A stretch of 64,000 bases of DNA from Methanococcoides burtonii DSM 6242 (GTDB lineage Archaea > Halobacteriota > Methanosarcinia > Methanosarcinales > Methanosarcinaceae): assembly GCF_000013725.1 (NCBI RefSeq), contig NC_007955.1:2263579-2327578 (forward strand). The letters run 5' to 3'. Below are positions 1,893-19,726 of the stretch, piece after piece; the first letter of the stretch is position 1, and the number at the start of each line of letters is the position of its first letter. The notes below the pieces were generated by a model. That model saw only the letters and a program-made list of their open reading frames with translations. It was not told where the DNA came from and made no database searches. The translations under genes were made by a program, and so were the position numbers.

Positions 1893-2052
1893 AGTTCTTC
1901 TCTATAAGCTCTTAAAGTATATTTATTTCAATGATGTTTTCTGTGGATATATTGAGGAGAATTCCGATAAACCCCTCAAACAGAAGCAATATTTATAACA
2001 TATTACAATAATTTTGTATTATGTCCTTAACGAACTTTGCTTTTAAAGAAGA

Positions 2053-3193
2053 GAGAATTCCGATAAACCCCTCAAACAGAAGCAATATTTATAACCTATT
2101 ACAATAATTTTGTATTATGTCCTTAACAAACTTTGCTTTTAAAGAAGAGTACAAACGTCTTGAAAATCTCGGTGACAAGCTCTCTGAAATTGAATCTCTC
2201 ATCGATTGGAAACCATTTCGTCCAATTATAGCAGAGATGTATATCAATAAAACAGAGTTCGGTGGCAGACCAAACGTTGATGAAATCGTCATGCTCAAAA
2301 TGTTAGTATTGCAACAATGGCATGGCCTATCTGACCCTGAACTTGAAAGACAAGCTACTGATAGAATTTCCTTTAGGAAATTCTTGGGCTTTCCTGCAAA
2401 AATTCCAGATCATACTACTGTTTGGGCATTTAGAGAACGAATTTCCCAGGCAGGAAAAGAAGATGAAATCTGGAATGAAATGCAAAGACAACTTAATAAG
2501 AAAGGTCTGAAGATCAAGCAAGGTATGATTCAGGATGCAACATTTATACATGCTGATCCAGGACATGCAAATCTTGATACTCCTCGTGGAAATGAAGCAA
2601 AGACCAGAAGATGTAAGGACGGTACATGGACAAAAAAGGCATCTAAGTCACATTTTGGATATAAACTACATACCATTGAAGATACCGAATATGATCTGAT
2701 AAGGAGATATAGGACAACTACTGCCTCAGTTCATGATAGTCAGGTGGATCTTTCTGAAGAAGGCGAAGTTGTTTACAGAGATAGAGGTTACTTTGGTGCA
2801 ATTTCAAAAGGATATGATGCAACTATGCAAAGGGGAGTACGAGGGCACCCTATTGGTATTAGGGATAAGATGAGAAACAAAAGAATAAGCAGGAAAAGAG
2901 CAAAGGGAGAAAGACCTTATGCTGTTATCAAAAATGTGTTTACGTCAGGATTTGTAAGAGTAACAACGTTGGCAAGAGTAAATGTCAAAATGGCGATTAC
3001 AGCATTCAGCTATAATCTCTATCAATTGAGGACAATAAGAAGAAAATCATTAGGATGAATAGCGGTAGCTATTCAAAAAAGTTGGAAAGTATATAAATAG
3101 ATACTAGCAAACTGCTGGAAATAGAGAGAAAAGCTCAAAATTTTAGCTGGAAATATTTGCTTTGAAAAAAATCAGCAGTTAATCGCAATTCTC
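2053..3193 (+). mobile_element. IS5-type insertion sequence, intact 1141-bp form, nested in another IS
   Basis: It starts with GAGAATTCCG at 2053 and ends with CGCAATTCTC at 3193. It is flanked by the 4-bp duplication AAGA (2049-2052 and 3194-3197), created in the outer element shortly after its transposase start codon. The copy at 17990-19130 has the same length and encodes an identical transposase, so both probably moved recently. After the transposase stop, GAATAGC-ggta-GCTATTC followed by A residues forms a small hairpin. Confidence 0.93.
2117..3058 (+). CDS. IS5-family transposase (intact)
   Basis: A 313-residue DDE transposase. The N-terminal domain (roughly 1-115) contains the block LIDWKPFRPII and the HTTVWAFRERI block typical of IS5-type enzymes. 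The catalytic part includes QDATFIHADPGH with the first Asp near residue 140, the second Asp in the EVVYRDRGYFGA block near residue 225, and a downstream Arg/Lys-rich region RNKRISRKRAKGERPYAVIK carrying the conserved Glu. It cuts and joins the element ends. No frameshift is visible, so this copy could be active and could also mobilise the defective 1192-bp relatives in trans. Confidence 0.93.
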   Translation: MSLTNFAFKEEYKRLENLGDKLSEIESLIDWKPFRPIIAEMYINKTEFGGRPNVDEIVMLKMLVLQQWHGLSDPELERQATDRISFRKFLGFPAKIPDHTTVWAFRERISQAGKEDEIWNEMQRQLNKKGLKIKQGMIQDATFIHADPGHANLDTPRGNEAKTRRCKDGTWTKKASKSHFGYKLHTIEDTEYDLIRRYRTTTASVHDSQVDLSEEGEVVYRDRGYFGAISKGYDATMQRGVRGHPIGIRDKMRNKRISRKRAKGERPYAVIKNVFTSGFVRVTTLARVNVKMAITAFSYNLYQLRTIRRKSLG

Positions 3194-3438
3194 AAGAGTA
3201 CAAACGTCTTGAAAATCTTGGTGATAAGCTTTCTGAAATTGAATCTCTAATCGATTGGAAACCATTTCGTCCAATTATAGCAGAAATGTATGTCAACAAA
3301 ACAGAGTTCGGTGGCAGACCAAACGTTGATGAAATCGTCATGCTCAAAATGTTAGTATTGCAACAATGGCATGGCCTATCTGACCCTGAACTTGAAAGAC
3401 AAGCTACTGATAGAATTTCCTTTAGGAAATTCTTGGGT

Positions 3439-3489
3439 CATGTTAAATCAGAGATTTAACAGGAGTTGCAGATTATCAATCTGCAACAA
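3439..3489 (+). repeat. 51-bp in-frame double-hairpin insertion inside the transposase
   Basis: Compared with the intact transposase, 17 codons are added between the Leu-Gly and Phe-Pro-Ala residues. The insert holds two perfect hairpins: TGTTAAATC-aga-GATTTAACA (3441-3461) and GTTGCAGATT-atc-AATCTGCAAC (3465-3487), separated by GGA. It keeps the frame but brings one TAA stop at 3457. An identical insert lies at 16773-16823 in the other 1192-bp IS copy. Origin and function are unknown. Confidence 0.85.
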
Positions 3490-4370
3490 TTTCCTGCAAA
3501 AATTCCAGATCATACTACTGTTTGGGCATTTAGAGAACGAATTTCCCAGGCAGGAAAAGAAGATGAAATCTGGAATGAAATGCAAAGACAACTTAATAAG
3601 AAAGGTCTGAAGATCAAGCAAGGTATGATTCAGGATGCAACATTTATACATGCTGATCCAGGACATGCAAATCTTGATACTCCTCGTGGAAATGAAGCAA
3701 AGACCAGAAGATGTAAGGACGGTACATGGACAAAAAAGGCATCTAAGTCACATTTTGGATATAAACTACATACCATTGAAGATACCGAATATGATCTGAT
3801 AAGGAGATATAGGACAACTACTGCCTCAGTTCATGATAGTCAGGTGGATCTTTCTGAAGAAGGCGAAGTTGTTTACAGAGATAGAGGTTACTTTGGTGCA
3901 ATTTCAAAAGGATATGATGCAACTATGCAAAGGGGCGTGCGAGGTCATCCTATTGGTATTAGGGATAAGATGAGAAACAAAAGAATAAGCAGGAAAAGAG
4001 CAAAGGGAGAAAGACCTTATGCTGTTATCAAAAATGTGTTTACGTCAGGATTTGTAAGAGTAACAACGTTGGCAAGAGTAAATGTCAAAATGGCGATTAC
4101 AGCATTCAGCTATAATCTCTATCAATTGAGGACAATAAGAAGAAAATCATTAGGATGAATAGCGGTAGCTATTCAAAAAAGTTGGAAAGTATATAAATAG
4201 ATACTAGCAAACTGCTGGAAATAGAGAGAAAAGCTCAAAATTTTAGCTGGAAATATTTGCTTTGAAAAAAATCAGCAGTTAATCGCAATTCTCTGAGATT
4301 TTCAAATTCACTCACAAATCCTCCCCGTCTAGTTTGACGACATTTACCTCACATATAACTTATCTTTTAG

Positions 4371-4436
4371 TTTTGGAGATTTAATAATGGTATAGAACAA
4401 ACCAAAAGAAGAATCTCCAAAAGTTATTATATAATC
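4371..4436 (+). promoter_or_regulatory. Promoter region with 11-bp inverted repeat upstream of the defence cassette
   Basis: TTTTGGAGATT (4371-4381) and its perfect inverted copy AATCTCCAAAA (4412-4422) flank a 30-bp A-rich spacer. Immediately downstream is an A/T-rich TATA-like box at 4424-4436, about 35-48 bp before the helicase start at 4472, which also has a plausible ribosome site (AGGAG near 4460). An inverted repeat next to the TATA box could be an operator; its binding protein is unknown and no regulator gene adjoins it. Confidence 0.5.
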
Positions 4437-4471
4437 AAATTGATTTTCTTTAGATAGCAGGAGTATGAAAG

Positions 4472-7400
4472 ATGTCTGACCTATCGATGAAAGTATTTGA
4501 TAATAATGCTGGGTTGCTTGATAAATATAAAGAGGGTTCAGTTGTAGATATTTTTGAACATTATGCTGAAAAAGGTGTGCATCTCAAAGAACGAGTAGAT
4601 TCTTTTTTTCGAATGGATATAGGAACAGGCTATCTTTTTTTTTCTGGCTTTAAAGAGACGCATGATGTTTTTAAAAGACTTATTGATAATAAGGTTCTAA
4701 AGACGATTACAGATGACGAGGAATGGGATAGTAAAGCACCAATACGAATTGTAATGGGGCGTGAGACAAGTAAATTTACAAAGGAAATTTTATTGTCTAT
4801 TATTAAAGACGACATAAGTACTTATGATGATGAAACTGTTGAATTGCTTGAGTATCTTATTAAAAATAATCTTATTGAGTTCAGGGTGTTTCTTGATAGA
4901 AAATTCCATGTGAAGATTTTTAGTTTTTATTATCAAAGTAGTGTATTTCCAGATGATTTATGGGCAGGTTCTGCAAATTTCTCAAAAGGCGGGCTAACTG
5001 ACAATATTGAACTCTGCATACCAATGAATGTCACTGGAGAGACGCGGGAATTGTTCAGAGAGTGGTTCGATGTACTTTGGAGAAAGGCAAATAAAGATTT
5101 GAATCTCCTTACTATCATCAAGGATGTAAAAGAGTCTAAGTATATTTATCTACATCCCATGAACTTTTTTACTAAACTTATTCACCTGCTGAACAAAAGA
5201 TATCTGCTTGAGGATGAAGTTGAAGGCGATGAGAATATCCTCCTCGAATTCCAAAACCTGAGCTACTACATAGTAATGGAGCGCCTTCAGAAATACGGTG
5301 GTTATATTCTTGCAAATTCTGTGGGCCTTGGTAAATCCTATGTTGCCGGGCAGGCTATGAAAGCTTATCTTAAGCAAAATCCAGATAAAAAGTGTTTGCT
5401 TATCTATCCGCCTAGAATGAAAACGGAATGGAATAGCTATCTAGAAGAGTTTGGGATATCTGATAAGGTGGACATGATTTCGATGGGAATCCTTCAGAAA
5501 CCATCATATGGGGAAGCAGACGAGGGGATTTTTGATCATAGGGCATATACAGATAAATATTCTTTAATCGTGGCTGATGAAGCACACCACTACAGAAATG
5601 AGAATAACAGAAGAAAAAATATTGTAAATCTTATTAAGAGCAATGGAAAAGCAGAGGTGCTTCTCCTAACTGCAACTCCGGTCAATTTGAGTTCGAAGGA
5701 CCTTTTCAACCTAATCGATCTGTTCTATCAAGGTGAGAATGTTACACGTTTTGAAAGTCAGGGAATTCGGGAACTTTATGATACGACCAGCAGGGAACTC
5801 AAAGATTCTAAATATAAATTCAATAAGGATTTACTTGAAAAGATTAAGAGAATTGAAAAGGAACTAAACCTGAAGATAACGTGGCGCATTGTGCAGGATC
5901 ATTTTAAAGAAGACCTATGGAAACTTTCAGGGGTGAAATCGAAATATGAAGAACCTGATATAAGAGAAGTATCATTTACTTATCCTGATGAATATAAAGA
6001 GAAAATATTTGATAACATAGTAACTTTTCTGAAGAATCTAAAATATGAGCCAGCCAAATTGTGGGATGGGCAGGGCTATAAAGATGATAAAAATCTGCAA
6101 TTTTGGTACAAATGGCAGTTATATAAAAGACTTGAAAGCAGTCTTTATGCGTTCTACAAAAGCGTATATTACCTGAAAATTCGTTTTGCTCTTTATAGAG
6201 AATCTCTTGAGAAAGGTACATGGATAAATGGGGATAATCTGGATATCCTGCCTTTTGAACTTGGCAAACAAGAGTATCACGCTATTATTGATGAAACACG
6301 TCACCGTGTGATATTTGATTCGTTCCATGAACAGGACAGTTCGATCCAAGAACAGATTTTATTTAATCATTCCAATGATCTTGCATCAATAGATGAGATG
6401 CTTGATACGCTCAAAGAAGTTTTTGGTGAACTTGAAGAGATACCCTATAAGGATGATAACAAGATCCAGAACTTAAAAGATATACTTAAGAATAACCTGC
6501 GTGATGGAAAACCGACGATTGTATTTTCTCAGTACAAAGATACTATTGATTATCTTTACAAGTCATTGAATGGTGATATCGAAAAGATTGATTACATCCA
6601 CGGTAGCAGTGACAAATCAAAGGATAAATTGATAGATCAATTCCAGAAAGGGGATGTCGATATTATTCTTACGACTGATATTCTTTCAGAGGGTGTGAAT
6701 ATACCAAGAGCAGTGTCAATCATTAATTTTGATTTACCTTATAATCCTGTGTTACTTGTGCAAAGAGCAGGGAGAGCGCTCAGAATCACAAATCCAAAGA
6801 AACTTTTGATATACAACTTTAAACCAGAGGCCGAAATTGATAAGGAGCTCGCACTTTATGATAAACTCGAAGTTCGTTTAAAGACAATTCTGGATATTGT
6901 TGGATTGGACTTTATTGTATGGCTGATGGATGAGAAGAACATTAAGGAGGTGCACGAAGAGGAGAAAAAGCAGTATCTTGAAAAGTTCGGCGAGTACAAG
7001 GAGAGGCTCGCTACAACAGATCCAGATAAATTGTTCTCTGCAACTCTACCGGATGAGTCAAAACTGGATAAGGTGCTGAGAAAAGCAATCCTTAGATATC
7101 ATATTACAGAGGATGTTCTTGAAGTTATAAATCCTGAAATTAAAAAGCCCATATACACTGTGCTAAATGATGAAGATGACCTGTTCCTGATAGGAAAAAC
7201 GGGTAGCAGGATTAAGACGATTAATGAGATCAGGGAATCCCTTAAATATGTGCCTGAAGATGCGCGCAGGTTGGCTTCTGCTGATTACTCGAAAATCGAG
7301 TCCCAAATAACAAGTGCAAATGCAGAGATTGAAAAAGAGAGGACCTCCAGTAGTTTGATAGGGAGGAAATCAAAAAAACTTCTGAATAATATAAAAGAAG

Positions 7401-7669
7401 CAAAAGTGAAACTTGAATCTCAGGATATGTGCGATTGCTTGGATAGGGTGCGGGAACTTGTCGAGAAACAGGCACTTTTGCCGGATGAATCTGGCAAGGT
7501 TGAGAAAGTGGTTGAGCACATAATCTCGCATCCGTCTATATTTAAAGAGAGCGTTGATGATTCTATTAGAAATACAGAGGACTGGGATGATTTTACTGAG
7601 ATTTCCCGAAAGTCTTTATCTGTTGCTGGGATTGAACTTAAAGCATTTATAAAATACACTGGTGGCTAA
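4472..7669 (+). CDS. PLD-type nuclease/superfamily 2 helicase fusion, defence protein
   Basis: A 1065-residue cytosolic protein. Residues about 30-210 look like a phospholipase-D-type nuclease: H146-x-K148 in FHVKIFSF, then AGSANFSKGG at 165-174 and a conserved Asn-x-Glu after it. Residues about 255-480 form the first helicase lobe, with Walker A NSVGLGKS (282-289), Walker B/DEAH in VADEAHHYR and motif III LLTATPVN. The second lobe follows with IVFSQYKD, TTDILSEGVNIP and VQRAGRALR. The C-terminal 250 residues are charged and unassigned. The methyltransferase gene starts one base after this stop. By analogy with ATP-dependent restriction systems it probably translocates on and cleaves unmodified DNA. 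I do not recognise a named system. Confidence 0.8.
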   Translation: MSDLSMKVFDNNAGLLDKYKEGSVVDIFEHYAEKGVHLKERVDSFFRMDIGTGYLFFSGFKETHDVFKRLIDNKVLKTITDDEEWDSKAPIRIVMGRETSKFTKEILLSIIKDDISTYDDETVELLEYLIKNNLIEFRVFLDRKFHVKIFSFYYQSSVFPDDLWAGSANFSKGGLTDNIELCIPMNVTGETRELFREWFDVLWRKANKDLNLLTIIKDVKESKYIYLHPMNFFTKLIHLLNKRYLLEDEVEGDENILLEFQNLSYYIVMERLQKYGGYILANSVGLGKSYVAGQAMKAYLKQNPDKKCLLIYPPRMKTEWNSYLEEFGISDKVDMISMGILQKPSYGEADEGIFDHRAYTDKYSLIVADEAHHYRNENNRRKNIVNLIKSNGKAEVLLLTATPVNLSSKDLFNLIDLFYQGENVTRFESQGIRELYDTTSRELKDSKYKFNKDLLEKIKRIEKELNLKITWRIVQDHFKEDLWKLSGVKSKYEEPDIREVSFTYPDEYKEKIFDNIVTFLKNLKYEPAKLWDGQGYKDDKNLQFWYKWQLYKRLESSLYAFYKSVYYLKIRFALYRESLEKGTWINGDNLDILPFELGKQEYHAIIDETRHRVIFDSFHEQDSSIQEQILFNHSNDLASIDEMLDTLKEVFGELEEIPYKDDNKIQNLKDILKNNLRDGKPTIVFSQYKDTIDYLYKSLNGDIEKIDYIHGSSDKSKDKLIDQFQKGDVDIILTTDILSEGVNIPRAVSIINFDLPYNPVLLVQRAGRALRITNPKKLLIYNFKPEAEIDKELALYDKLEVRLKTILDIVGLDFIVWLMDEKNIKEVHEEEKKQYLEKFGEYKERLATTDPDKLFSATLPDESKLDKVLRKAILRYHITEDVLEVINPEIKKPIYTVLNDEDDLFLIGKTGSRIKTINEIRESLKYVPEDARRLASADYSKIESQITSANAEIEKERTSSSLIGRKSKKLLNNIKEAKVKLESQDMCDCLDRVRELVEKQALLPDESGKVEKVVEHIISHPSIFKESVDDSIRNTEDWDDFTEISRKSLSVAGIELKAFIKYTGG

Positions 7670-7670
7670 A

Positions 7671-10600
7671 ATGACAGAATATGATCTGGATTTCCTGAAG
7701 GAAAAAGGGTTTTTAGAAACTTCAATTAACATGGAGGATAAGTACGATACAGCAGAAGGAACTGTAAAGTTTGTTTCTTATCTTTTTGATTCTAAGAATC
7801 GACTGGCTTATTTTGTTGATTTTAATGTGGAAGACATTGCTTCTATTCTCAAGGTTTTAAGAGAAAAACGCAATTTTGATTATTACTGGTTCTGGAAGGA
7901 AGGCAGAATTTACACATTCCGCACATTTGGAGAAAATAAGCAGTTTATTTTTAATACCCAGCATAGCAGGAAAACTGAATACATAAAGAGCAAGAAGGAT
8001 AAGCTCTCCAAGTTTTCCTCTGATAATCCAACTGCACTTTTTGATGTGAAAGATGTCATTTTACGATTCTACCGCAACTTGTGGAATTTAAGGTTGAAGC
8101 TTGCAAAGGCAGTAAACAATGAATTGGATGATCGAGACAAGATTCTTGCTGCCCAGAGGCTTCTGGATAGGTTGATATTTACATACTTCATTGCAGAGAA
8201 AGGGATTATATATGGTATAGATAAGCGAGGCAACCGGCAGGAACTCAGTGCCAGAAATCTCTTTAGGTATCTGATAGAGGTTTCTGGAGACTTTCACAGC
8301 CTTTTAAATGTGTTATTTTTTGATTATCTTAACGATTCTAAGAAAAACGATATGCCAATTCAAGGTGCTGAGGGTTACTCTCTGTTTATTCCGTACTTAA
8401 ACGGTGGTTTGTTCAGGGAGCGGCAAATTACAACCCCTACTGGTGAATCCATTGGAGAGTCTGAACTTGAAATTGAAGGTTTTGAATGGAACGATCTCAT
8501 CGATGCACTTAATGAGTACAACTGGATCATTGACGGATACACGGATACTGAAGCTGAGGATACAATCGGCAACCTGACGCCTGAGATACTTGGTCATATC
8601 TACGAAAAGTTTGTTATCTCAGTGAGTGAACTTGACGATGTTGATGTTGATGACCTGAAAAAAACAAAGGAAGGCGAGCTTAAGAAGGGTAACAAGAAGA
8701 TCGGAGCATATTATACTCCAGAAGCAATTACTAAGTACATTGCTGAGAACACGATTTTCCCATTTGCGATGGATAAACTCGAACTTGATAAAAAATACGA
8801 GAATTTTGCTGATTTCCATGAAGCCCACAATAATGATGCAGATACATTAAATCGGTTTAATGAAGCATTGAAGCATATCAAGGTCTTGGACCCTGCTGTT
8901 GGCAGCGGTGCGTTCCCGATGGCTGCTGCGGACATACTGTTCGACTGGAGGCGCAAGTGTAGGGAAAAACTGGATGATTACCACCTGCGCCGTGAGATTA
9001 TCATAAACAACTTGCATGGCGTGGATATCATGGAAGGTGCTGTGGAGATTTGTATGCTGAGGTTGTGGTTGTGGTTGATTGCCTCGGTGGATACCAAGAA
9101 AGAGATTGAGGCACTGCCGAATATTGAATTTAATGTTTTTGAGGGAAATTCGCTGATTGGGTATGTGGATGAAAAAGAGGTTGTAGATCTTAAGCCTAAA
9201 AATAAACCAAAAGCGCGCTGGGATACTCTAACCCACAAACAATTTACTATAGATAATTGGGGAGAAGAGGGGATTTTTTATTTATTCCAACAGCGCAACG
9301 ATAAAATCAGGGAGTACAGGAATGCAAGCGGAGAACGGGCTGAGCGCTTGAGGTCTGAAATCAAGCAGATGACAGATGAATTCAATAGACTGTTAGATGG
9401 TAAGCTGTTGAAGGAGTTACAGAATAAGGGGATTGATATTGATGAGGATAAACTGAAGGAGCTCAAACCGTTCCACTGGGTGATGCAGTTTTCGAATGTT
9501 TTTGAGAAAGGTGGGTTTGATGTGGTTATTGGGAATCCGCCATATGTAAATGCTTGGGAAATGGAAGAGGGGAGCAAGTTAATACGTACTATTTTACCAA
9601 AATTATTTAACGACAAATGCCCACTTAAATCACATTGGGATTTATATATTCCTTTTATCATTCAAGCATTAGAAATCAATAGTAAGCAAGGGTATTTTTC
9701 ATATATTTTGCCAAATCCCATTTGTAGGGAAAAGTATGGGATTGAGGTTCGTAAATATATCTTAGAGAACACAAACATTAAAAACATTTTAACATCCGGG
9801 GTGCGAAATGTTTTCGAAGGCGTTTCACGTCAAAGCATTGTGTTGATTATAAAAAATAGCAAGCCTAAAAAGGTAGATAATATTATTTCTATAAATTACA
9901 TCGATGAAGATAATAACATTTCAATTCTTAATTCCACTAAACAATCAGACTGGAACAATCTTTTTCAGTGTCAGTTTAGATATGAAATGGATTCTACATC
10001 ATTTGATATCATCTCGCACATTGATAAATTAAAGGTTCGGCTTGGGAATATCTATTATGTAAATTACGGTGCACAAATATCCAGCAAAGAAAAAGGAAAA
10101 TTTGGAAAGCAATATCTTTTGGAAAAAGATCCAAAAGAAAATCCGAAGAAATTTATTGAAGGAAAAGATTTATCCAGATATTCAATAAGTGATCGAGGAC
10201 TCTATTTAGATTACTTGCCAAAAATGATGTATGGTCCAAGGGTTCCTGAATTTTTTGAATCTCCTAAATTAATAACACGGCATGTATCCGGTAAAAATGA
10301 TTCATTAATTTTCACCATTGATAAAATGGGATATTATAGCGATCATGGATTAATCATGTCCACAGATTATGAAAATTTAAATAGTAAAAACCGAACATCT
10401 TTTTCGGATTATACAGTTGATTCTAAACACAATTACCAGATTGAATTGCTTTTAGGAATCTTAAATTCCAAATTAATGTCTTTTTTTTACGCAAACGTTT
10501 ATGCAACTGGGAGTCTTCAGGGTTCATATTCGCATGTTTATCCTCAGCATGTACGAAATTTTCCAATATCTACCAAAGTTAAATTAAGTTATTCAGATTC

Positions 10601-10985
10601 AATTGTTAAGATTGTTTACTATTTACTCTTTAATCCGCCAAACAAGAATGCTATTATATCAAATTATTTTGATCAATATATTCTTGACTCTCTCGTTTAT
10701 TCTCTCTATTTCTCCTCTAATTTTACCACCGTTGGCATCCCCACAGACCTCGTAGATAAAATTGCCTCCTACCTCGAACCAATAAACTACGACCGTTGGG
10801 CGCAACTCGAATTCAAAGATAAACTGACCGGGGTGGAAATGAAGGAAAAGCAGGCGTTAGAAGAGAGGAACATGACAGTTATCGAAAGGGTGTACCAGCG
10901 TCTCAAGAATGATAAAGAGATTCAGGGGTGCATCCGACAGATCAAGTCGCATCCTTGGGTGAAGGTGGTGGAAGGGGAAGCATGA
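7671..10985 (+). CDS. Large N6-adenine DNA methyltransferase, Eco57I/PglX-like, of the defence cassette
   Basis: About 1104 residues starting at the ATG at 7671, preceded by GGTGG; a GTG at 7662 in the same frame overlaps the helicase stop and is less likely. AdoMet motif I is DPAVGSGAF (about residue 405) and the catalytic motif is NPPY (about 621), in the order of gamma-class N6-adenine enzymes. The long N-terminal part has the charged helical style of the Eco57I/PglX group. The part after NPPY, about 640-1020, is the likely target-recognition domain and is visibly richer in A+T than either flank. It should mark host DNA and define the recognised sequence for the PLD-helicase. It could also be a self-contained modification-restriction subunit, but I see no separate nuclease motif. 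Confidence 0.82.
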   Translation: MTEYDLDFLKEKGFLETSINMEDKYDTAEGTVKFVSYLFDSKNRLAYFVDFNVEDIASILKVLREKRNFDYYWFWKEGRIYTFRTFGENKQFIFNTQHSRKTEYIKSKKDKLSKFSSDNPTALFDVKDVILRFYRNLWNLRLKLAKAVNNELDDRDKILAAQRLLDRLIFTYFIAEKGIIYGIDKRGNRQELSARNLFRYLIEVSGDFHSLLNVLFFDYLNDSKKNDMPIQGAEGYSLFIPYLNGGLFRERQITTPTGESIGESELEIEGFEWNDLIDALNEYNWIIDGYTDTEAEDTIGNLTPEILGHIYEKFVISVSELDDVDVDDLKKTKEGELKKGNKKIGAYYTPEAITKYIAENTIFPFAMDKLELDKKYENFADFHEAHNNDADTLNRFNEALKHIKVLDPAVGSGAFPMAAADILFDWRRKCREKLDDYHLRREIIINNLHGVDIMEGAVEICMLRLWLWLIASVDTKKEIEALPNIEFNVFEGNSLIGYVDEKEVVDLKPKNKPKARWDTLTHKQFTIDNWGEEGIFYLFQQRNDKIREYRNASGERAERLRSEIKQMTDEFNRLLDGKLLKELQNKGIDIDEDKLKELKPFHWVMQFSNVFEKGGFDVVIGNPPYVNAWEMEEGSKLIRTILPKLFNDKCPLKSHWDLYIPFIIQALEINSKQGYFSYILPNPICREKYGIEVRKYILENTNIKNILTSGVRNVFEGVSRQSIVLIIKNSKPKKVDNIISINYIDEDNNISILNSTKQSDWNNLFQCQFRYEMDSTSFDIISHIDKLKVRLGNIYYVNYGAQISSKEKGKFGKQYLLEKDPKENPKKFIEGKDLSRYSISDRGLYLDYLPKMMYGPRVPEFFESPKLITRHVSGKNDSLIFTIDKMGYYSDHGLIMSTDYENLNSKNRTSFSDYTVDSKHNYQIELLLGILNSKLMSFFYANVYATGSLQGSYSHVYPQHVRNFPISTKVKLSYSDSIVKIVYYLLFNPPNKNAIISNYFDQYILDSLVYSLYFSSNFTTVGIPTDLVDKIASYLEPINYDRWAQLEFKDKLTGVEMKEKQALEERNMTVIERVYQRLKNDKEIQGCIRQIKSHPWVKVVEGEA

Positions 10986-11641
10986 ACAAAGATTCTCCGG
11001 CGATAGCGATGGACAATACTGCAAACTTTGATCGTATATGGTCTATCCTGAAAAAAGAATATCCTGACCCTCAACCTGAGCTGGATTACAGCAATGAGTT
11101 CGAGCTTTTGATAGCTACTATCCTTTCAGCACAGTGTACCGATGTGCAGGTCAATAAAGTGACAAATGAGCTGTTCAGGAAATACACGAATGTGGAGGCT
11201 CTTGCAGCGGCTGATCTGGACGTGCTTGAAAAAGAGATATATTCCACCGGTTTTTACCGTGCTAAATCGAAGAACATCAAAAGGACATCTCAACTGATAC
11301 TTTCTGATTTCAATGGCAAGGTGCCTGACACAATGGAAGAACTTACAACCTTTCCGGGAGTTGCCCGAAAGACGGCCAATATCGTTCTTGCAAGGGGATT
11401 CGGCAAGGTGGAAGGCATTGCAGTGGATACGCATGTGAAAAGGGTTTCTGGAAAGTTGGGGCTTACTGAGAACACTGACCCGAAGAAGATAGAACAGGAC
11501 CTTATGAAGCTTGCAGAACAAAAGGACTGGGAAGATCTGTCAATGACACTCATACTTCATGGACGCAGGGTATGTGATGCAAAAAAACCTCAGTGTATCG
11601 TTTGTCTGCTTTCGAAGCTATGCCCTTCGAGTCTGGTTTGA
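10982..11641 (+). CDS. nth: Endonuclease III, DNA glycosylase/AP lyase
   Basis: About 219 residues from the ATG at 10982, which overlaps the methyltransferase stop as ATGA. An upstream in-frame start at 10928 lies inside the methyltransferase and is rejected. The helix-hairpin-helix TTFPGVARKTAN carries the catalytic Lys, and VDTHVKR the catalytic Asp. The [4Fe-4S] loop C-x6-C-x2-C-x5-C lies near the end. The enzyme removes oxidised pyrimidines in base excision repair. The overlap implies translational coupling to the restriction-modification genes, either by chance of insertion or because repair is needed with them. Confidence 0.95.
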   Translation: MNKDSPAIAMDNTANFDRIWSILKKEYPDPQPELDYSNEFELLIATILSAQCTDVQVNKVTNELFRKYTNVEALAAADLDVLEKEIYSTGFYRAKSKNIKRTSQLILSDFNGKVPDTMEELTTFPGVARKTANIVLARGFGKVEGIAVDTHVKRVSGKLGLTENTDPKKIEQDLMKLAEQKDWEDLSMTLILHGRRVCDAKKPQCIVCLLSKLCPSSLV

Positions 11642-11659
11642 ATGAATATGTTTCATATG

Positions 11660-11695
11660 TAAATTATCTGTAAATTATTTATAAATTATCTGTAA
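11660..11695 (+). promoter_or_regulatory. Direct repeat with TATA-like core before the membrane-protein gene
   Basis: TAAATTATCTGTAA occurs twice (11660-11673 and 11682-11695) with a 22-bp period, and the stretch between them contains TTTATAAATT, a good archaeal TATA box. It lies 26-60 bp before the start at 11722. The repeats may bind a regulator or may be simple-sequence drift. Confidence 0.4.
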
Positions 11696-11721
11696 GTTGA
11701 AAATGGATCTGTGGTAATAAA

Positions 11722-12465
11722 ATGAATATGCGTTCAAAATATGTGATATTTGGTTCTGCTCTTGTGCTGGTATCGGCTGTCATCCACCTGATCCACTATC
11801 TGATCTTCCATGACATGCATCACATTTCTATCTATCTTATTGGGAGGATTGCCTTCGTTCCCATAGAGGTACTGCTGGCTTCTTTGATAATCCATCATTT
11901 TCTTGAACGTATCGAGAACAAGCATAAGATGGAAAAGCTCAACATGATAATTGGAAGTTTTTTCAGTGAGGTCGGTAATGATCTTCTGGCTGTCATCTCT
12001 GATGCTGATCCCCACCTTGACCATGTAAGGGAAAAATTCGTGATAAAGGATGTATGGTCAGAAAAGGAGTTTGCTGATTTTGAGGTCTTTCTCAAAGGCT
12101 ACATCTATAAAGTTGATATGAATAAGATAGATCTGGTTCCTTTTGCTTCATCTATTATCAGTAAAAGAAATTACCTTGTGTCCCTGCTCCAGAATCCTGT
12201 GATGTTCGAGCATGAATCCTTTACTGAACTTCTTAGGGCTGTTTTCCATCTGACCGAAGAGCTGGAATATCGCGGAGATCTTTCATCTCTTCCCAATTCT
12301 GACAGGCTCCATCTTTCAGGGGATGTCAAAAGGGTATACAGTTTGCTTTCCCGCGATTGGTTGAAATATATGCAATATCAGAAAGCCAATTATCCCTATT
12401 TGTTCTCCCTTGCAATGAGGACCAATCCGTTCGATAAGGATGCAAGTGTGGTAGTAACAGAGTGA
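11722..12465 (+). CDS. Conserved membrane-anchored protein of unknown function
   Basis: A 247-residue protein. Two hydrophobic segments near residues 7-30 and 38-60, in a His-rich setting (IHLIHYLIFHDMHHISIY), anchor it in the membrane. The remaining 185 residues are soluble, charged and mainly helical, and probably cytoplasmic. I do not recognise a domain with a known job. It is preceded by a TATA-like repeat region and followed by a hairpin plus T-rich tract, so it is probably transcribed alone, between nth and dinB. Confidence 0.75.
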   Translation: MNMRSKYVIFGSALVLVSAVIHLIHYLIFHDMHHISIYLIGRIAFVPIEVLLASLIIHHFLERIENKHKMEKLNMIIGSFFSEVGNDLLAVISDADPHLDHVREKFVIKDVWSEKEFADFEVFLKGYIYKVDMNKIDLVPFASSIISKRNYLVSLLQNPVMFEHESFTELLRAVFHLTEELEYRGDLSSLPNSDRLHLSGDVKRVYSLLSRDWLKYMQYQKANYPYLFSLAMRTNPFDKDASVVVTE

Positions 12466-12479
12466 TCGTCAGGGACCTC

Positions 12480-12525
12480 AACAAGCATTTCTCTGTTAAT
12501 GCTTGTTCCTTTCCTACTTTTTAAG
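12480..12525 (+). terminator. Hairpin terminator
   Basis: AACAAGCATT (12480-12489) pairs perfectly with AATGCTTGTT (12498-12507) across an 8-nt loop and is followed by a pyrimidine-rich, T-rich tract to 12522. It sits 15 bp after the stop of the membrane-protein gene. Confidence 0.6.
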
Positions 12526-12604
12526 AGTGGAGTTCGTAGCTTTTTCCACTTTCATTCCACATACCAAATCCTTTAAACTGCCTTTACACATACTAGTTCT
12601 TACA

Positions 12605-13699
12605 ATGTCCCGCATTATCCTCCATGTAGATATGGATTATTTCTACGCTGCCATCGAAGAGCGTGAGGACCCTTCCCTTAAGGGAAAAGCGGTCGTTGTC
12701 TGTATGTATTCCAATCGTGGCGAGGAAGGAGGTGCTGTCAGTACCTGCAACTATGTTGCAAGGGATGCAGGTATTCACTCCGCCATGCCCTGTCGTCTTG
12801 CAAAGGCTGTCAAACCGGATGCTGTTTTTTTGCCAGTGAGAAAAACCTTCTATTCTGAGGTTTCGGAAAGGATAATGGAGATCATCAGGTCCTATGCTGA
12901 TAATGACGGGGAACTTTTTGAGAAGCTAGGCATCGATGAAGCTTTCCTTGAAGTGACGGCCACCTCTAGGGGAGATATTGATAAGGCACAACAGATCGCA
13001 CAGAGCATCAAGGATGATGTAAAGGAGCTGGAGGGTCTTACCTGTTCGGTGGGCATAGGTCCTAACAAGATAATCGCCAAGATGGCATCATCCCGTCAGA
13101 AGCCGGACGGTATCACTGTTATCAGGGAGGATGAGGTGGATGGTTTCCTCAGGAAGATGCCTGTGGCAAAATTATGGGGTATCGGAAAGGTCACAGAGGA
13201 AAAACTTGCCAATATGGGTATCGATATCGTGGAAGACCTTGCCGGCCACGATGTTCAGGAACTGATCTCCGCTTTCGGGAAGACGCGGGGTACGTGGCTC
13301 AAGATGGCTGCATCAGGCATCGATGACGACCCTGTGAAGGAGAAGACAAGTTCTGACCAGATCGGCAGGATGGCCTCTCTTACCCATGATACCCGCAAAA
13401 GCGATCTGGTGCTCTCCCTGCTTGATGAGCTTCTGGATGATGTGTTCAGTAAGGTCACTGCAAGAAATGTTTCATTCAGATCGATCACTGTAACAGTCAT
13501 ATATTCTAATTTCAAGACCGTTACCAAAAGCCATACGCTCAATCATCCAATGGCTGAAAAGGCAGTGCTCAGGGAAGTTTCCTATCAGATAATGGGGGAA
13601 TTGCTGGATAGCAGTACTGTCAATATACGCCGCATTGGTGTGCGTGTGGGGAACCTGCATGAGAACAAGGGTCAGAAAACGCTGGCTGAGTTCTTTTGA
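12605..13699 (+). CDS. dinB: DNA polymerase IV (Y-family translesion polymerase)
   Basis: 364 residues from the ATG at 12605. The palm motif HVDMDYFYAAIEER is at the N terminus and KLGIDEAFLEV holds the second acidic pair, where this copy has DEA instead of the usual SxDE arrangement. The helix-hairpin-helix (KLWGIGKVTEEKLANMGI) and the little-finger domain follow. The last residues, KTLAEFF, resemble the PCNA-binding peptide QxxLxxFF, which fits the pcn gene elsewhere in the window. It copies damaged DNA. Upstream in-frame codons from 12503 are rejected because the conserved N terminus begins at MSRIILHVD. A decayed copy of its 3' end lies at 15790. Confidence 0.95.
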   Translation: MSRIILHVDMDYFYAAIEEREDPSLKGKAVVVCMYSNRGEEGGAVSTCNYVARDAGIHSAMPCRLAKAVKPDAVFLPVRKTFYSEVSERIMEIIRSYADNDGELFEKLGIDEAFLEVTATSRGDIDKAQQIAQSIKDDVKELEGLTCSVGIGPNKIIAKMASSRQKPDGITVIREDEVDGFLRKMPVAKLWGIGKVTEEKLANMGIDIVEDLAGHDVQELISAFGKTRGTWLKMAASGIDDDPVKEKTSSDQIGRMASLTHDTRKSDLVLSLLDELLDDVFSKVTARNVSFRSITVTVIYSNFKTVTKSHTLNHPMAEKAVLREVSYQIMGELLDSSTVNIRRIGVRVGNLHENKGQKTLAEFF

Positions 13700-13731
13700 T
13701 ATTAGGATGCGAAGGTTCGGATTTCTCCCCT

Positions 13732-13780
13732 CGCATAGCAAGTCGGGGATATAGGTAAGAAGAAAAAACGGAACTCTTAT
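13732..13780 (+). repeat. Partial copy of the 19.7-kb hairpin repeat
   Basis: This 49-bp stretch, 33 bp after dinB, aligns with 19743-19791. The two share the segments GGGGATATAGGTAA and AAAAAACGGAACTCTTA and differ at about seven positions. Here the 5' arm of the hairpin is eroded (CTCCCC remains), so only a short stem can form. A still weaker version follows the dinB relic at 15847-15900. Confidence 0.65.
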
Positions 13781-13982
13781 TCAAAATTTATTATGTATTG
13801 TTGAATTGAAAATCCACAAAATGGGACTAAATAACTTATTCACAAATTACATTCTTTAGAAAATAGTAAAGTAAAAAAGATTAAATCAAATTTTGGAAAT
13901 AATTCTCAAAAGGTTTAAGGCATATCAAATCTTATTTACTTTGCATAATTTTATAAAGAAAAATACAAGGGTGTTGCTAAGT

Positions 13983-14888
13983 GTGAACAAAATGTTCAGA
14001 TGTACAATATGTATTGTTCTAGTGATATTTTGCATGGGATGTATAGAAAACGAACAAGAAGTAAGTGTGGAAGATATCACCAGTGAAGAAGATATACTTT
14101 TTATAAATAATAATTATAAAGAACTTGACGAAGCCGGAGATATGGCATCATATATATGCCAAATGGAAGTAATGGATTATTATAGTCAGCCTAATGTAGC
14201 TTATGTGTTTGATGAAGAAGTCTTTTATATGAATGAAAGTGAAAGGGCTAAAGTAGAGTACACAGAAGCAATTATCCACTTTAATAGAACACCAATTCAT
14301 TTTATTGATTTGAATAAAATCGAAGAGTTTGGTGAACTGAATTATAGCAGGTCTCATCTAAATTCAATTGTATCCTCTGCATTTACACCGATGTATGGTG
14401 TTGATGGTGAACAACTTAATTGTATCATATATTCCAGAAACATCCTTTTAAATCATTGTATGTCAAAGGAACATGAAGACAGGTTAAGAGGAGCCTTTAA
14501 AATAATAGACACGTGGGCTAAATTCAGAGATAGTATGATACAGGCTAATGTTCCAATGAACCGTTCTGATGCAAACAGAACGTTTGTACTTGATAATGTT
14601 GAAGACATGAATGTAATAATGGATTTAAATTGGAAACAAGCTGATCTTGAACAGTATTTTGATTTCTTAGATACATCTGGTTTCAATTCATCAAATGATT
14701 TGTTAATGTTTGCTCGCCAGTTTAGAATTGCAAAAAAATGTATTGATGATAAAGCATCCAATAGTGAACGGAATAAAATATATGAAGCAAGAGAGTATGT
14801 AATTGCTAATTTCCCGCTATACAGTGATGCTGGCATTCAAAAATCTGATATTAAAGTTTATTTTTATCGGTGTGATAACAAATCATAA
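13983..14888 (+). CDS. Putative lipoprotein of unknown function
   Basis: About 301 residues. A GTG at 13983 with AAGG about 10 bp upstream, or the ATG at 13992, gives a short hydrophobic signal segment ending in CMGC, a lipobox-like cleavage site, followed by an acidic linker. The rest is soluble and helical with no domain I recognise. The in-frame ATG at 13893 would put a basic extension before the signal and is less likely. The gene is A+T-rich compared with dinB and lies inside the relic island, suggesting acquired DNA. It would be anchored outside the cell membrane. Confidence 0.6.
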   Translation: MNKMFRCTICIVLVIFCMGCIENEQEVSVEDITSEEDILFINNNYKELDEAGDMASYICQMEVMDYYSQPNVAYVFDEEVFYMNESERAKVEYTEAIIHFNRTPIHFIDLNKIEEFGELNYSRSHLNSIVSSAFTPMYGVDGEQLNCIIYSRNILLNHCMSKEHEDRLRGAFKIIDTWAKFRDSMIQANVPMNRSDANRTFVLDNVEDMNVIMDLNWKQADLEQYFDFLDTSGFNSSNDLLMFARQFRIAKKCIDDKASNSERNKIYEAREYVIANFPLYSDAGIQKSDIKVYFYRCDNKS

Positions 14889-14968
14889 ATATTTTCTTAA
14901 GCACTTTCCAGTGCTGAGTCTTTTATTGTTTCCAACCAATTTTGAGCATGGAACTCTAGCTTTAAAAT

Positions 14969-15348
14969 TTATACCCACATCCCTAACCTATCCCTCACAT
15001 GAGCATTTAGAGTGAATGGCTTATTAACCTCCTCACCGCTGGAGTATTCAAATTCAAATCTCCATTTTCCTTTATCCTCTGCTTAATCCCCTGAAACCTG
15101 CTCTTTGAAATCCCTAATGCTCCAGCCTGCTTTTGTGAAATATTGAGAATATTTTCCATGATATCTAGCTTATTAATAAACTCTTGAGCCTTCTTCAAAT
15201 CCAATTCCTGCTCATCAATATTGTTGGCTTCTTTCCCAATGTAAACCACAGAATCAGCATAAATATGCTTTCTTTCAAGAACTCCAACCTCACTAGTGAA
15301 AGAAAGGAATATGAAATATATACTTCAAAAATGATATGCCACTCTGTA
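14969..15348 (-). pseudogene. Decayed helix-turn-helix tail, relic A (resembles Cas1-family C-terminal extension)
   Basis: Reading right to left, an open stretch without an upstream body encodes VLERKHIYADSVVYIGKE, then a helical linker and an HTH-like segment GISKSRFQGIKQRIKENG ending in NTPAVRRL. It runs, with a frame change, straight into 18 codons (15022-14969) encoding KPFTLNAHVRDRLGMWV and a stop, the end of a different tail type also found at 21426-21488. A stop codon precedes the module, so no complete protein is made. From memory these tails resemble extensions on Cas1-type integrases of Methanosarcinaceae; this was not checked against a database. Confidence 0.5.
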
Positions 15349-15597
15349 CTCTGAATAAAATTATTGATGAGTGTTTTACAATGAAATCTTCGAACTGAAA
15401 ACTCTTTGTGTTGGCTATAATTTCCCTTTTAATATTGGCAGGATATCAATAATTAGTTTAGTGCAATCTTAATATGATAAGCAATATAAATTCCTAGCAT
15501 GATTACTGCTATAATTTTAAAAAACACTGTTATATTTTGAAGTTTCATTATGATCAAGTCCTTTATTTTTTCCCTTCTCTATGAAGGTCTCTTCTTC
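15349..15597. other. Gene-free stretch within the relic island
   Basis: About 250 bp of A+T-rich sequence between two tail relics. I see no open frame with coding character, no RNA gene and no repeat that I could pair with another part of the window. Confidence 0.5.
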
Positions 15598-15789
15598 TTA
15601 ATTAACTTTTACGGAGACAGTATTCAAAGTAAACGGCTTGTCACTTTTAACATTCTGTTTCATGTGGTGTAATGTACCTTTAGAGAATCCCATTTTCTTC
15701 CATTCTTTGTAACCGATAGCAAGAATCTTCTTCCTCTGAAAATCAGTATCATTCCTTTCTACCAAAACCGCCGCCACCGGCAGTTTCTG
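15598..15789 (-). pseudogene. Decayed helix-turn-helix tail, relic C, joined to a hyuB-end fragment
   Basis: On the minus strand, bases 15789-15762 resemble the end of hyuB (AGAAACTGCCGGTGGCGGCG against AGAAACTCCCGGTGGCGGCG at about 21712-21693). The frame then encodes ERNDTD, WKKMGFSKGTLHHMKQN, and KPFTLN before breaking down. This parallels relic D at 21426-21690, where the same two parts are joined. The tail is HTH-like and similar to what I recall at the C terminus of Cas1-family proteins in Methanosarcinaceae. No intact gene is present. Confidence 0.5.
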
Positions 15790-15846
15790 GTGCATGTGGA
15801 CTTGCATGAAAACATATGTCCAAAAATTCTGACAAATTTCTTTTGA
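15790..15846 (+). pseudogene. Relic of the 3' end of dinB
   Basis: On the plus strand the 19 codons GTG CAT GTG ... TTC TTT TGA encode VHVDLHENICPKILTNFF and a stop, aligning with the last residues of the real DinB (VRVGNLHENKGQKTLAEFF). The similarity continues past the stop: TTCTTTTGATATT is shared exactly with 13691-13703, and weaker similarity runs on to about 15900. The relic starts immediately after a hyuB-end fragment. That is the junction expected if a segment from the dinB end to the hyuB end had been tandemly duplicated. Confidence 0.65.
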
Positions 15847-15968
15847 TATTCGATACAAAGGTTTGTATTTCTTCCTCTTACTACCAAGTCGAATATGCAT
15901 GTAAAAACAAAAACCAAACTTCCTATATTTATTTTGAAAAATGTTACTTTTTTAAAATTTATAATCTA

Positions 15969-17160
15969 GAGAATTGCGATTAACTGCTGATTTTTTTCAA
16001 AGCAAATTTTTCCAGCTAAAATTTTGAGCTTTTCTCTCTATTTCCAGCAGTTTGCTAGTATCTATTTATATACTTTCCAACTTTTTTGAATAGCTACCGC
16101 TATTCATCCTAATGATTTTCTTCTTATTGTCCTCAATTGATAGAGATTATAGCTGAATGCTGTAATCGCCATTTTGACATTTACTCTTGCCAACGTTGTT
16201 ACTCTTACAAATCCTGACGTAAACACATTTTTGATAACAGCATAAGGTCTTTCTCCCTTTGCTCTTTTCCTGCTTATTCTTTTGTTTCTCATCTTATCCC
16301 TAATACCAATAGGATGACCTCGCACGCCCCTTTGCATAGTTGCATCATATCCTTTTGAAATTGCACCAAAGTAACCTCTATCTCTGTAAACAACTTCGCC
16401 TTCTTCAGAAAGATCCACCTGACTATCATGAACTGAGGCAGTAGTTGTCCTATATCTCCTTATCAGATCATATTCGGTATCTTCAATGGTATGTAGTTTA
16501 TATCCAAAATGTGACTTAGATGCCTTTTTTGTCCATGTACCGTCCTTACATCTTCTGGTCTTTGCTTCATTTCCACGAGGAGTATCAAGATTTGCATGTC
16601 CTGGATCAGCATGTATAAATGTTGCATCCTGAATCATACCTTGTTTGATCCTCAAACCTTTCTTATCAAGTTGTCTTTGCATTTCATTCCAGATTTCATC
16701 TTCTTTTCCTGATTGAGCAATTCGTTCTCTAAATGCCCAAACAGTAGTATGATCTGGAATTTTTGCAGGAAATTGTTGCAGATTGATAATCTGCAACTCC
16801 TGTTAAATCTCTGATTTAACATGACCCAAGAATTTCCTAAAGGAAATTCTGTCAGTAGCTTGTCTTTCAAGTTCAGGGTCAGATAGTCCATGCCATTGTT
16901 GCAATACTAACATTTTGAGCATGACGATTTCATCAACGTTTGGTCTGCCACCGAACTCTGTTTTATTGATATACATCTCTGCTATAATTGGACGAAATGG
17001 TTTCCAATCGATGAGAGATTCAATTTCAGAGAGCTTGTCACCGAGATTTTCAAGACGTTTGTACTCTTCTTTAAAAGCAAAGTTTGTTAAGGACATAATA
17101 CAAAATTATTGTAATATATTATAAATATTGCGTCTGTTTCCGAGGTTTATCGGAATTCTC
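15969..17160 (-). mobile_element. IS5-type insertion sequence, 1192-bp variant, minus orientation
   Basis: The ends GAGAATTGCGATTAAC (15969) and CGGAATTCTC (17160) are the right and left IS ends in reverse. The length of exactly 1192 bp equals the outer IS at 1957-4293, including the 51-bp double-hairpin insert (16773-16823). The flanking 4-mers are TCTA on the left and TATA on the right, so no perfect target duplication remains. One flank has therefore mutated or been replaced by recombination. Confidence 0.88.
16104..17096 (-). pseudogene. IS5-family transposase with in-frame UAA
   Basis: Read on the minus strand, the transposase starts at 17096, meets TAA at 16805-16803 within the 51-bp hairpin insert, and continues in the same frame to 16104. 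Outside the insert it differs from the intact transposase by few residues (for example Ala-Gln-Ser for Ser-Gln-Ala near the RERI motif). Readthrough of the stop would give a 330-residue protein; otherwise two fragments of 97 and about 230 residues would result. Confidence 0.85.
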
Positions 17161-17490
17161 TATAGAGTGGTATATCATTTTTGAAGTATATATTTCATAT
17201 TCTTTTCTTTCACTGGTGAGATTGGAGTTCTTGAAAGAAAGCATATTTATGCTGATTCTGTGGTTTACATTGGGAAGGAAGCTAACAATATTAATGAACA
17301 GGAATTGGATGTGAAGAATGCTCAGAGTTTGTTGATGAGAATTTAGTCTATGATTTCATTCTGAAGCTTATACCTGAAAAAGCAAGAGAGATTGGAATCA
17401 AGCATAGGAGTGCTTAGCTTATCTGAAGAAAAAAGCAAAGGAAGATGATTTGAATGGCGAATCCAAAAAGTTATTGATGAGATTATTATA
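17161..17490 (+). pseudogene. Decayed tail, relic B, with an inverted duplicate of 15168-15348
   Basis: Bases 17161-17341 are a close inverted copy of 15348-15168, beginning exactly at the IS end. They encode the same VLERKHIYADSVVYIGKE module. After the shared part the sequence switches to another tail: fragments IPEKAREIGIKHRSA and KKKAKEDDLN in shifting frames with stops. The two relics thus share one module but carry different DNA-binding-like ends. No functional protein remains. Confidence 0.55.
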
Positions 17491-17989
17491 TTTATTCTAA
17501 AGACTCTAAATATGCATCAAAATCATTAATTTTTTCAATTTGTATTTTGTACTTTCCTTGAACCTCTTTAGCTTCATAAAAATGTACATCGATTCCTTCT
17601 TTTAGATAATTTTCATTAATGACGTTATGAATTTGTTCAACAGTCTTTCGGTTTATTTTCAAACCAAAAATAATTCCTTCTAAATCATTTTTTTCATATT
17701 TTGTAATTCCATCATCAAATTCATCCTCAAAAATTAACATTCGGAATTCTTTTTCGTATTCCCACTCAGTGTATTTAGTTAACAAAAATATGGTAAGATT
17801 TTGATTACCAAACATGTTTATTGCTGGTGGAAGGTTGTCTTCATAGTTTATATCAAAAAACGGGCTTGAAACTAATTTAGCAGATGATTTTAGATGTAAA
17901 TAATGTCCATCTTTTGCTTTTTTAGATCTGAAACAAATACAAATACCTTTATGGTTATCGGCATAATGACTCCACATTAAGATATTATT

Positions 17990-19130: not shown

Positions 19131-19726
19131 TATTATTTGTTTCACTAAAACAGCAAACTCTTGGCAAATGTTTCTTATTTATGCCGCCGTGAAGAACAGT
19201 TTTATGTTTGGAATGATAGACTTCATTCATTGGATCAAATGTAAATAAATCACCATCTTTTTCAATATAGGGAGATTTAATTTCATTTGACTTATTAGGA
19301 CGAAAACCTTTCCTTATTAACAAATTATCCCAATCTTCTATTTTGCCTTGATAAACAAGGTTAACTTTACAGTCAAATGGATCATTAAATTTGGTAGAAT
19401 CACTAAAATATAGTTGGTTTTTGGTTAAGTTATCAATAGTATGATTCTCATCATCAGCTTTAAATTTTAGATATTTATAGAATAATTTCTCGGTCTCCAT
19501 TTGAATCGCTAAACAATAACATTTTTTTGGATATAATTCTTTTGAAAAAAATCTTTTAGATTTAAGGCACACAAAGTTGTTAGCAAGAGATCTATAGTGT
19601 GATTTGATCAAAAGTAAATGTTCAACTTTTGTAGATATCACAATAGTCTACAAAAAAAGGCAGTTTCTCTTAGATGTTTGAACAACAGTTATGCAAGGAA
19701 TTCACACAAGACCGTACAAAAAATTC

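Follow-up and report, generated by a model that had tools for sequence, protein, structure and literature searches.

Introduction

What do two long adjoining genes of the archaeon Methanococcoides burtonii encode, and does the repair gene that follows them belong to the same system? The question arises from a stretch of 64,000 nucleotides of strain DSM 6242 (RefSeq assembly GCF_000013725.1, contig NC_007955.1, positions 2,263,579 to 2,327,578 of the forward strand; this whole stretch is referred to as the window, and positions are counted from its first letter), where P0001, a fusion of a phospholipase D (PLD)-type nuclease with a superfamily 2 (SF2) helicase, is followed by P0002, a large N6-adenine DNA methyltransferase, and by nth, the gene for endonuclease III. 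A sequence-only reading of the region had proposed an ATP-dependent restriction-modification (RM)-like system with a metal-independent PLD cleavage site, in which Nth might repair host DNA or might be coupled by accident. Our analysis indicates that the pair is likely a self-contained, horizontally acquired ATP-dependent RM cassette, whose methyltransferase would set the site while the PLD-helicase would translocate and cut. The RM-like part of the earlier proposal thus appears to fit all of our findings, whereas the coupling to nth was refuted as conserved biology.

Results

Two intact genes for a PLD-helicase and an N6-adenine methyltransferase

The features of the two genes are as follows:

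4472..7669, plus strand: P0001, a fusion of a PLD (HKD) nuclease and an SF2/Snf2-type ATPase, from motifs, Pfam, PADLOC and fold search
4907..5011, plus strand: PLD active site H146-x-K148, followed by GSANFSKGG and E180, conserved across 54 paired helicases
5315..6784, plus strand: SF2 motifs I (5315-5335), II DEAH (5576-5587), V and VI (6689-6784), from motif comparison
7671..10985, plus strand: P0002, a PglX/Eco57I-type N6-adenine DNA methyltransferase with a TaqI_C-like specificity domain, from Pfam, motifs and fold
8889..8915, plus strand: methyltransferase motif I, DPAVGSGAF, from sequence and conservation across pairs
9534..9545, plus strand: methyltransferase motif IV, NPPY, from sequence and conservation across pairs

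As described in the sequence-only reading, P0001 (1065 residues) joins a PLD H-x-K site and GSANFSKGG (residues 166-174) to a full SF2 helicase, whose motif set is complete on inspection (GxGK at residues 285-288, DEAH at 369-372, TATP, and motifs V and VI). The large methyltransferase with its DPAVGSGAF and NPPY motifs (1104 residues) also starts where that reading had placed it, with a single base separating the TAA stop of P0001 from the ATG at 7671, whereas the mechanical list of open reading frames begins at GTG 7662. Both frames are open from end to end, and both genes are intact. Pfam matches comprise Helicase_C (2.7e-24) and ResIII (7.4e-9) in P0001, and Eco57I (1.5e-33) and TaqI_C (9.7e-14) in P0002. 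The AlphaFold model of P0001 resembles Snf2 translocases, ZorD and SauUSI (7clg) in a structure search. The best PADLOC models are C3a139 'HKD+Snf2' for P0001 (127 bits, with 526 bits for the homologue from the Methanoperedenaceae genome GB37) and REase_MTase_IIG for P0002 (149 bits). Both proteins stay below all NCBIfam cut-offs, P0001 scoring 124 bits against the stand-alone PLD-helicase antiphage protein NF042964 (curated cut-off 1100) and 119 bits against DrmD (cut-off 610).

The model of P0002, with a mean predicted local distance difference test (pLDDT) score of 68, is most similar to BrxX/PglX and also resembles CamA, MmeI, BpuSI and DrdV, and its top NCBIfam model is the methyltransferase of BREX-1 (bacteriophage exclusion), with 82 bits against a cut-off of 500. 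Both matches would be in line with a BREX-like exclusion, where the methyltransferase marks self and the PLD-helicase stops phages from replicating but does not degrade DNA. We regard this mode of action as quite improbable, since a search of the genome for PglZ gave no match (with a positive control), the cassette carries no other BREX genes, and the catalytic PLD residues are conserved in 54 pairs (detailed below), which argues that cutting is maintained by selection.

Conservation and distribution of the pair

The search for relatives covered 84,980 species genomes and used an alignment of the methyltransferase alone, so that a helicase found next to it is not a consequence of selection. 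Among the 64 methyltransferase loci with at least 3.6 kb of upstream DNA, 48 contain a PLD-SF2 helicase, and the neighbourhood check asked for by the sequence-only reading thus finds the pair to be conserved, with nth next to it in none of about 60 other loci. A search of the genome contigs with the helicase alone recovered no relative, although the methyltransferase alignment did. In a set of 58 pairs, which includes archaeal loci fetched by the helicase and counts one GB37 locus twice (L053, L059), both genes invariably reside on the same strand (58/58); the helicase comes first in 53 cases, in 25 of which the genes overlap or are within 56 bp of each other. The hosts encompass methanogenic and anaerobic methanotrophic (ANME) archaea, Cyanobacteria, Betaproteobacteria, Chloroflexi, Bacteroidota, Planctomycetota and Nitrospira. 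Across 54 pairs, the H, K, G, S, N, G and E of the PLD site and the tested residues of the SF2 motifs are invariant or nearly so, as are the D and the NPP of the methyltransferase, and the distance matrices of both proteins correlate with r=0.83, compared to a permuted maximum of 0.45. These sequence comparisons show that the pair is a conserved module common to many bacteria and archaea.

In ten bacterial loci (L077, L084, L086, L089, L092, L098, L107, L108, L115, L131), a gene for an AAA ATPase is found downstream of the pair, which resembles HEC-01A/MAD3 in the one locus checked, and nine of the ten add a gene of about 200 residues. A four-gene variant composed of the pair, the ATPase and this small protein is thus possible.

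The closest full-length helicases are borne on plasmids of Natronococcus occultus SP4 (43% identity), Haladaptatus halobius (40%) and Methanothermococcus okinawensis (pMETOK01, 34%). On the two halophile plasmids, the methyltransferase follows the helicase with gaps of 1 and 49 bp, while on pMETOK01 (14.9 kb) it precedes the helicase, with one open reading frame between them and toxin-antitoxin genes nearby. Of 393 genomes sampled across the phylum, the present one alone gave a helicase match at 1e-70, and the lineage is therefore sparse, as expected for mobile defence genes. The plasmid location of the orthologues, the toxin-antitoxin genes on the one of only 14.9 kb and the sparse distribution would also suit a mainly selfish cassette, in which the same enzymes confer a different benefit, namely addiction by RM-type post-segregational killing. 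Such a role is compatible with an RM cassette, but as the predominant explanation we find it very unlikely for a pair that is chromosomal here and fixed at one site.

A methyltransferase of mosaic origin that lacks a nuclease motif

Neither P0002 nor its orthologues contain a D..ExK nuclease motif, and the comparable strand of P0002 reads AYFVDFN. In contrast, such a motif is present on the chain of seven solo relatives of the methyltransferase, in the form D..FLVEAK or FLLEAK, and the simplest reading of this difference is that cutting would be carried out by the PLD-SF2 partner. The possibility that P0002 begins with a degenerate PD-(D/E)xK domain was considered and dropped, as profile-profile comparison assigned it a probability of 0.2% and thus established no homology between the N-termini of P0002 and of the solo relatives; our claim concerns the absence of the motif alone. 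Six archaeal type IIG-like enzymes that combine a D..FLVEAK motif with an Eco57I methyltransferase (L061, L062, L064, L065, L066, L081) are the closest relatives for which the fetched DNA contains no PLD-helicase, and they offer a possible before/after comparison for the outsourcing of the nuclease.

The methyltransferase P0002 (METHYLTRANSFERASE) is a mosaic of two lineages, one of which is matched by the following segment:

9288..10736, plus strand: exchanged segment spanning motif IV to the specificity domain (residues about 540-1022), similar to the GB37 methyltransferase (56-65%), from identity comparison and segment scan

Residues 1-500 share 37-42% identity with the three plasmid orthologues, with GB37 outside the best ten matches. 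Conversely, identity to GB37 is 56% over residues 601-780 and 65% over residues 781-985, where the plasmid orthologues are absent among the matches listed, before the C-terminal 110 residues are again nearest to M. okinawensis (41%). In a segment scan, residues 540-1022 contain 135 of the 162 matches to GB37 only, as opposed to 14 of the 148 matches to the orthologues only, and a permutation test of the GB37-like block did not reach the observed value in any of 20,000 trials. The helicase, with 34-43% identity to the plasmid orthologues versus 26% to GB37, tracks the lineage of the methyltransferase framework. This split similarity is the pattern expected from the exchange of a specificity module. 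The framework would accordingly be the part that faces the helicase, and the half extending from motif IV to the specificity domain would set the target site. A prediction of the mosaic is that the methylation motif would be like that of the GB37 system and unlike those of the halophile orthologues.

The same observations bear on the question of whether the two genes are independent neighbours, in which case an orphan or type IIG-type methyltransferase would lie next to a PLD-helicase that acts alone against modified DNA in the manner of type IV enzymes. A precedent is found in SauUSI, a single-protein PLD-SF2 type IV enzyme (PMC7913695) and a structural match of P0001, and related methyltransferases do exist without the helicase. 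Nevertheless, we consider such independence unlikely in light of the strictly same-strand pairing across phyla, the lineage that the helicase shares with the methyltransferase framework while the specificity half belongs to another, and the absence in P0002 of the D..ExK motif found in its solo relatives.

Boundaries of the cassette and the relationship to nth

The extent of the inserted DNA is defined by features on both of its sides:

1957..4293, plus strand: array of an insertion sequence (IS), composed of three complete or partial IS5-like copies in head-to-tail order, a separate insertion outside the system, from sequence comparison
4294..4471, plus strand: left end of the cassette, operon upstream region with the TATA-like TTATATAA (4427-4434) and GGAG before the start codon, by eye, with the boundary from congener comparison
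10982..10985, plus strand: ATGA at the insertion junction, an accidental overlap, where the insert ends at 10982 and native DNA continues from 10983, from congener comparison
11009..11641, plus strand: nth (endonuclease III), a native chromosomal gene outside the system with the conserved start ATG 11009, from TIGR01083 and congener comparison

On the left side, homology to congeners stops near 1946. The IS array, whose transposase matches Pfam DUF772 and DDE_Tnp_1, is flanked by a TGAG target duplication of its own (1953-1956 and 4294-4297) and thus looks like an independent insertion. Once the array is set aside, about 10 bp plus 4294-10982 remain as acquired DNA, comprising just the two genes and the 178 bp upstream of them; its GC content is 36.6%, compared to 44.5% in nth and 41.2% in the window. 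Upstream of the helicase gene and of the TATA-like box, a perfect 11-bp inverted repeat (TTTTGGAGATT at 4371-4381 and AATCTCCAAAA at 4412-4422, 30 bp apart) could serve as an operator or form a hairpin.

On the right side, nucleotide homology to the closest congeners resumes at 10983 (10982 in one), which is the TGA of the methyltransferase. The gene that follows is a true nth, scoring 250 bits with TIGR01083 (cut-off 212), and is present in 11/11 genomes of the genus examined. In all ten other congeners it is located about 105-162 bp from the gene of a Na+/alanine symporter with neither a PLD-helicase nor a methyltransferase in between, the gene order being pyruvate oxidoreductase, symporter, nth, usually a 247-residue protein, and dinB. 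The ATG at 11009 (MDNT) is common to all congeners, whereas the codon at 10982 is GTG or ATT in the closest ones and diverges in others. The ATGA overlap into nth, to which the sequence-only reading had drawn attention, does exist in that an ATG at 10982 overlaps the TGA of P0002, but it is an artefact of the junction, which arose by chance where the final base of the insert meets the native TGAACAAAG that follows. The synteny in ten of ten congeners without the pair and the restart of homology at 10983 identify the link as an accident of insertion, which was the alternative that the same reading had offered, and nth appears from these comparisons to play no part in the system, being an old neighbour in a place where the pair was inserted between two native genes.

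There is next to no chance that endonuclease III is a coupled component that repairs host damage inflicted by the nuclease, one of the two options that the sequence-only reading had offered. Apart from the congener evidence, a scan of 96 related loci gave no match to nth, and none was seen next to the plasmid orthologues. What speaks for such coupling is the existence of the overlap in the present genome and the replacement, by the insertion, of the native nth upstream region, which in the closest congeners carries the TATA-like CTATAAATA (by eye), with the consequence that nth may now be transcribed by read-through from the cassette. The gene may thus have lost its own promoter and depend on this read-through, which would perhaps be a coupling of expression and no conserved part of the system. 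The case illustrates that an insertion junction is able to create a convincing yet accidental 'operon' with a repair gene.

Other observations concern the mobile elements of the window. Near-identical copies of the IS5-like element are found at 1957-4293, 15958-17161 and 17982-19131, the first of these being an array of two head-to-tail copies and a 96-bp partial copy; a short insertion common to two copies interrupts one of the transposase frames. IS-mediated carriage of the cassette was considered and rejected, since the array, as a separate insertion with its own TGAG duplication, gives no indication of being its carrier. At 15622-15760 and nearby, the minus strand holds a cas1 remnant of 138 bp with 80% identity to a resident cas1 (L146); the region is full of stops, and four intact cas1 genes are present elsewhere in the genome.

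Discussion

The cassette encodes a methyltransferase with a target-recognition domain together with an ATPase-nuclease, as is evident from the domains and their conserved pairing, and this combination is the general characteristic of ATP-dependent RM. It would probably mark self DNA by one protein and cut unmarked foreign DNA by the other. In the proposed mechanism, P0002 would recognize a specific DNA site via the half from motif IV to the specificity domain and methylate adenine at N6 to mark it as self. At an unmethylated site it would instead let the PLD-SF2 protein engage the DNA, which would translocate at the expense of ATP and cut both strands via its metal-independent PLD site, probably as a dimer by analogy with SauUSI. 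We infer that the two proteins form a complex, that translocation and cleavage are gated by methylation, and that the system excludes phages or plasmids. The conserved pairing and catalytic residues, the PglX-like fold, the occurrence on plasmids, the sparse distribution and the exchangeable specificity half all fit such an RM-like system.

Several observations weigh against this assignment. No intact PLD-helicase is found in 16 of the 64 related methyltransferase loci, several of which have a nuclease motif of their own, and the methyltransferase family is thus not bound to the helicase. The correlation of the distance matrices is partly due to shared ancestry. PLDc_2 matches P0001 at just 4e-4, under the curated Pfam cut-off, and the model of the protein is of low confidence (mean pLDDT 60.5), with a C-terminus that is not resolved.

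With about an even chance, the pair represents a distinct and widespread class of two-component ATP-dependent RM, in which a nuclease-less, single-chain PglX-like methyltransferase directs a separate PLD-Snf2 translocase-nuclease and where specificity evolves by swaps of the half from motif IV to the specificity domain while the helicase-facing framework stays fixed. If so, a minimal RM architecture would be common to many phyla, and current defence-system catalogues, which list its halves separately as a 'type IIG enzyme' and an 'HKD+Snf2' protein without a partner, would mislabel both genes and miss the system.

Relationship to known systems

The sequence-only reading could not name the combination, and the searched libraries likewise assign it to no described system, with type-2 BREX-related (BR) systems, the DISARM proteins DrmD and DrmMI, CglI/NgoAVII and SauUSI as the closest ones. 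No library model or paper naming the pair was found in a search that left subscription literature mostly outside, so that an earlier description is possible, and two defence surveys (PMC8565338, PMC12988326) contain no mention of it in the parts reached by the terms searched. C3a139 'HKD+Snf2' of PADLOC is a candidate model for a single protein, for which we found no description as half of a methyltransferase pair.

In BR systems of type 2, the effector carries an HKD nuclease as an N-terminal fusion to its Swi2/Snf2 helicase and is paired with an N6-adenine methyltransferase (PMC12839542), and the cassette has the same type of effector and of methyltransferase. However, BR systems also require a DUF499 ATPase and type 2 further a DUF3780 protein (PMC12839542). 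The former had no match in the whole genome (with a positive control), and the latter is absent from the inserted DNA with its two genes, the search for DUF3780 having been confined to this insert. Four loci (L054-L057) were discarded as yardsticks for type 2, as the one checked (L055) carries DUF4391, N6_N4_Mtase and a type III Res subunit. This locus, from another species of the genus, holds a different defence-like row of genes at 7991-16932, coding for an Snf2 helicase, DUF4391, N6_N4_Mtase and a type III Res-like endonuclease.

As regards BREX, the methyltransferase model resembles BrxX/PglX in fold, but its 82 bits fall well below the NCBIfam cut-off of 500; PglZ has no match in the genome, and the cassette carries no other BREX gene. 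Class 1 DISARM (defence island system associated with restriction-modification) is similar in that P0001 matches DrmD (102 bits) and P0002 DrmMI (92 bits) in PADLOC, but other PADLOC models outscore both, and the PLD is fused to the helicase in the cassette. DrmA, DrmB and DrmC are absent from the inserted DNA, and the genome has a single DUF1998/MZB match, at a distance of about 1.8 Mb.

SauUSI is a dimeric, single-chain PLD-SF2 type IV enzyme that translocates at the expense of ATP and shreds DNA (PMC7913695). P0001 likewise combines PLD nuclease and SF2 ATPase within a single polypeptide and matches SauUSI structurally (7clg), whereas SauUSI lacks a methyltransferase partner and recognizes methylated sites through a target-recognition domain of its own. 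In CglI and NgoAVII, a methyltransferase, a nuclease and a DEAD-family SF2 ATPase form an NTP-dependent RM system (PMC4267653, PMC5737866), with nuclease and ATPase as separate proteins in a three-gene arrangement, in contrast to their fusion in P0001. Type IIG and MmeI-type enzymes resemble P0002 in combining methyltransferase and specificity domain on one chain, and P0002 folds like MmeI, BpuSI and DrdV, but it is devoid of their D..ExK motif, and cutting would presumably proceed in trans and depend on ATP. Compared in this way, the pair appears to be a variant of ATP-dependent RM that stands outside the named BR type 2, BREX and DISARM systems.

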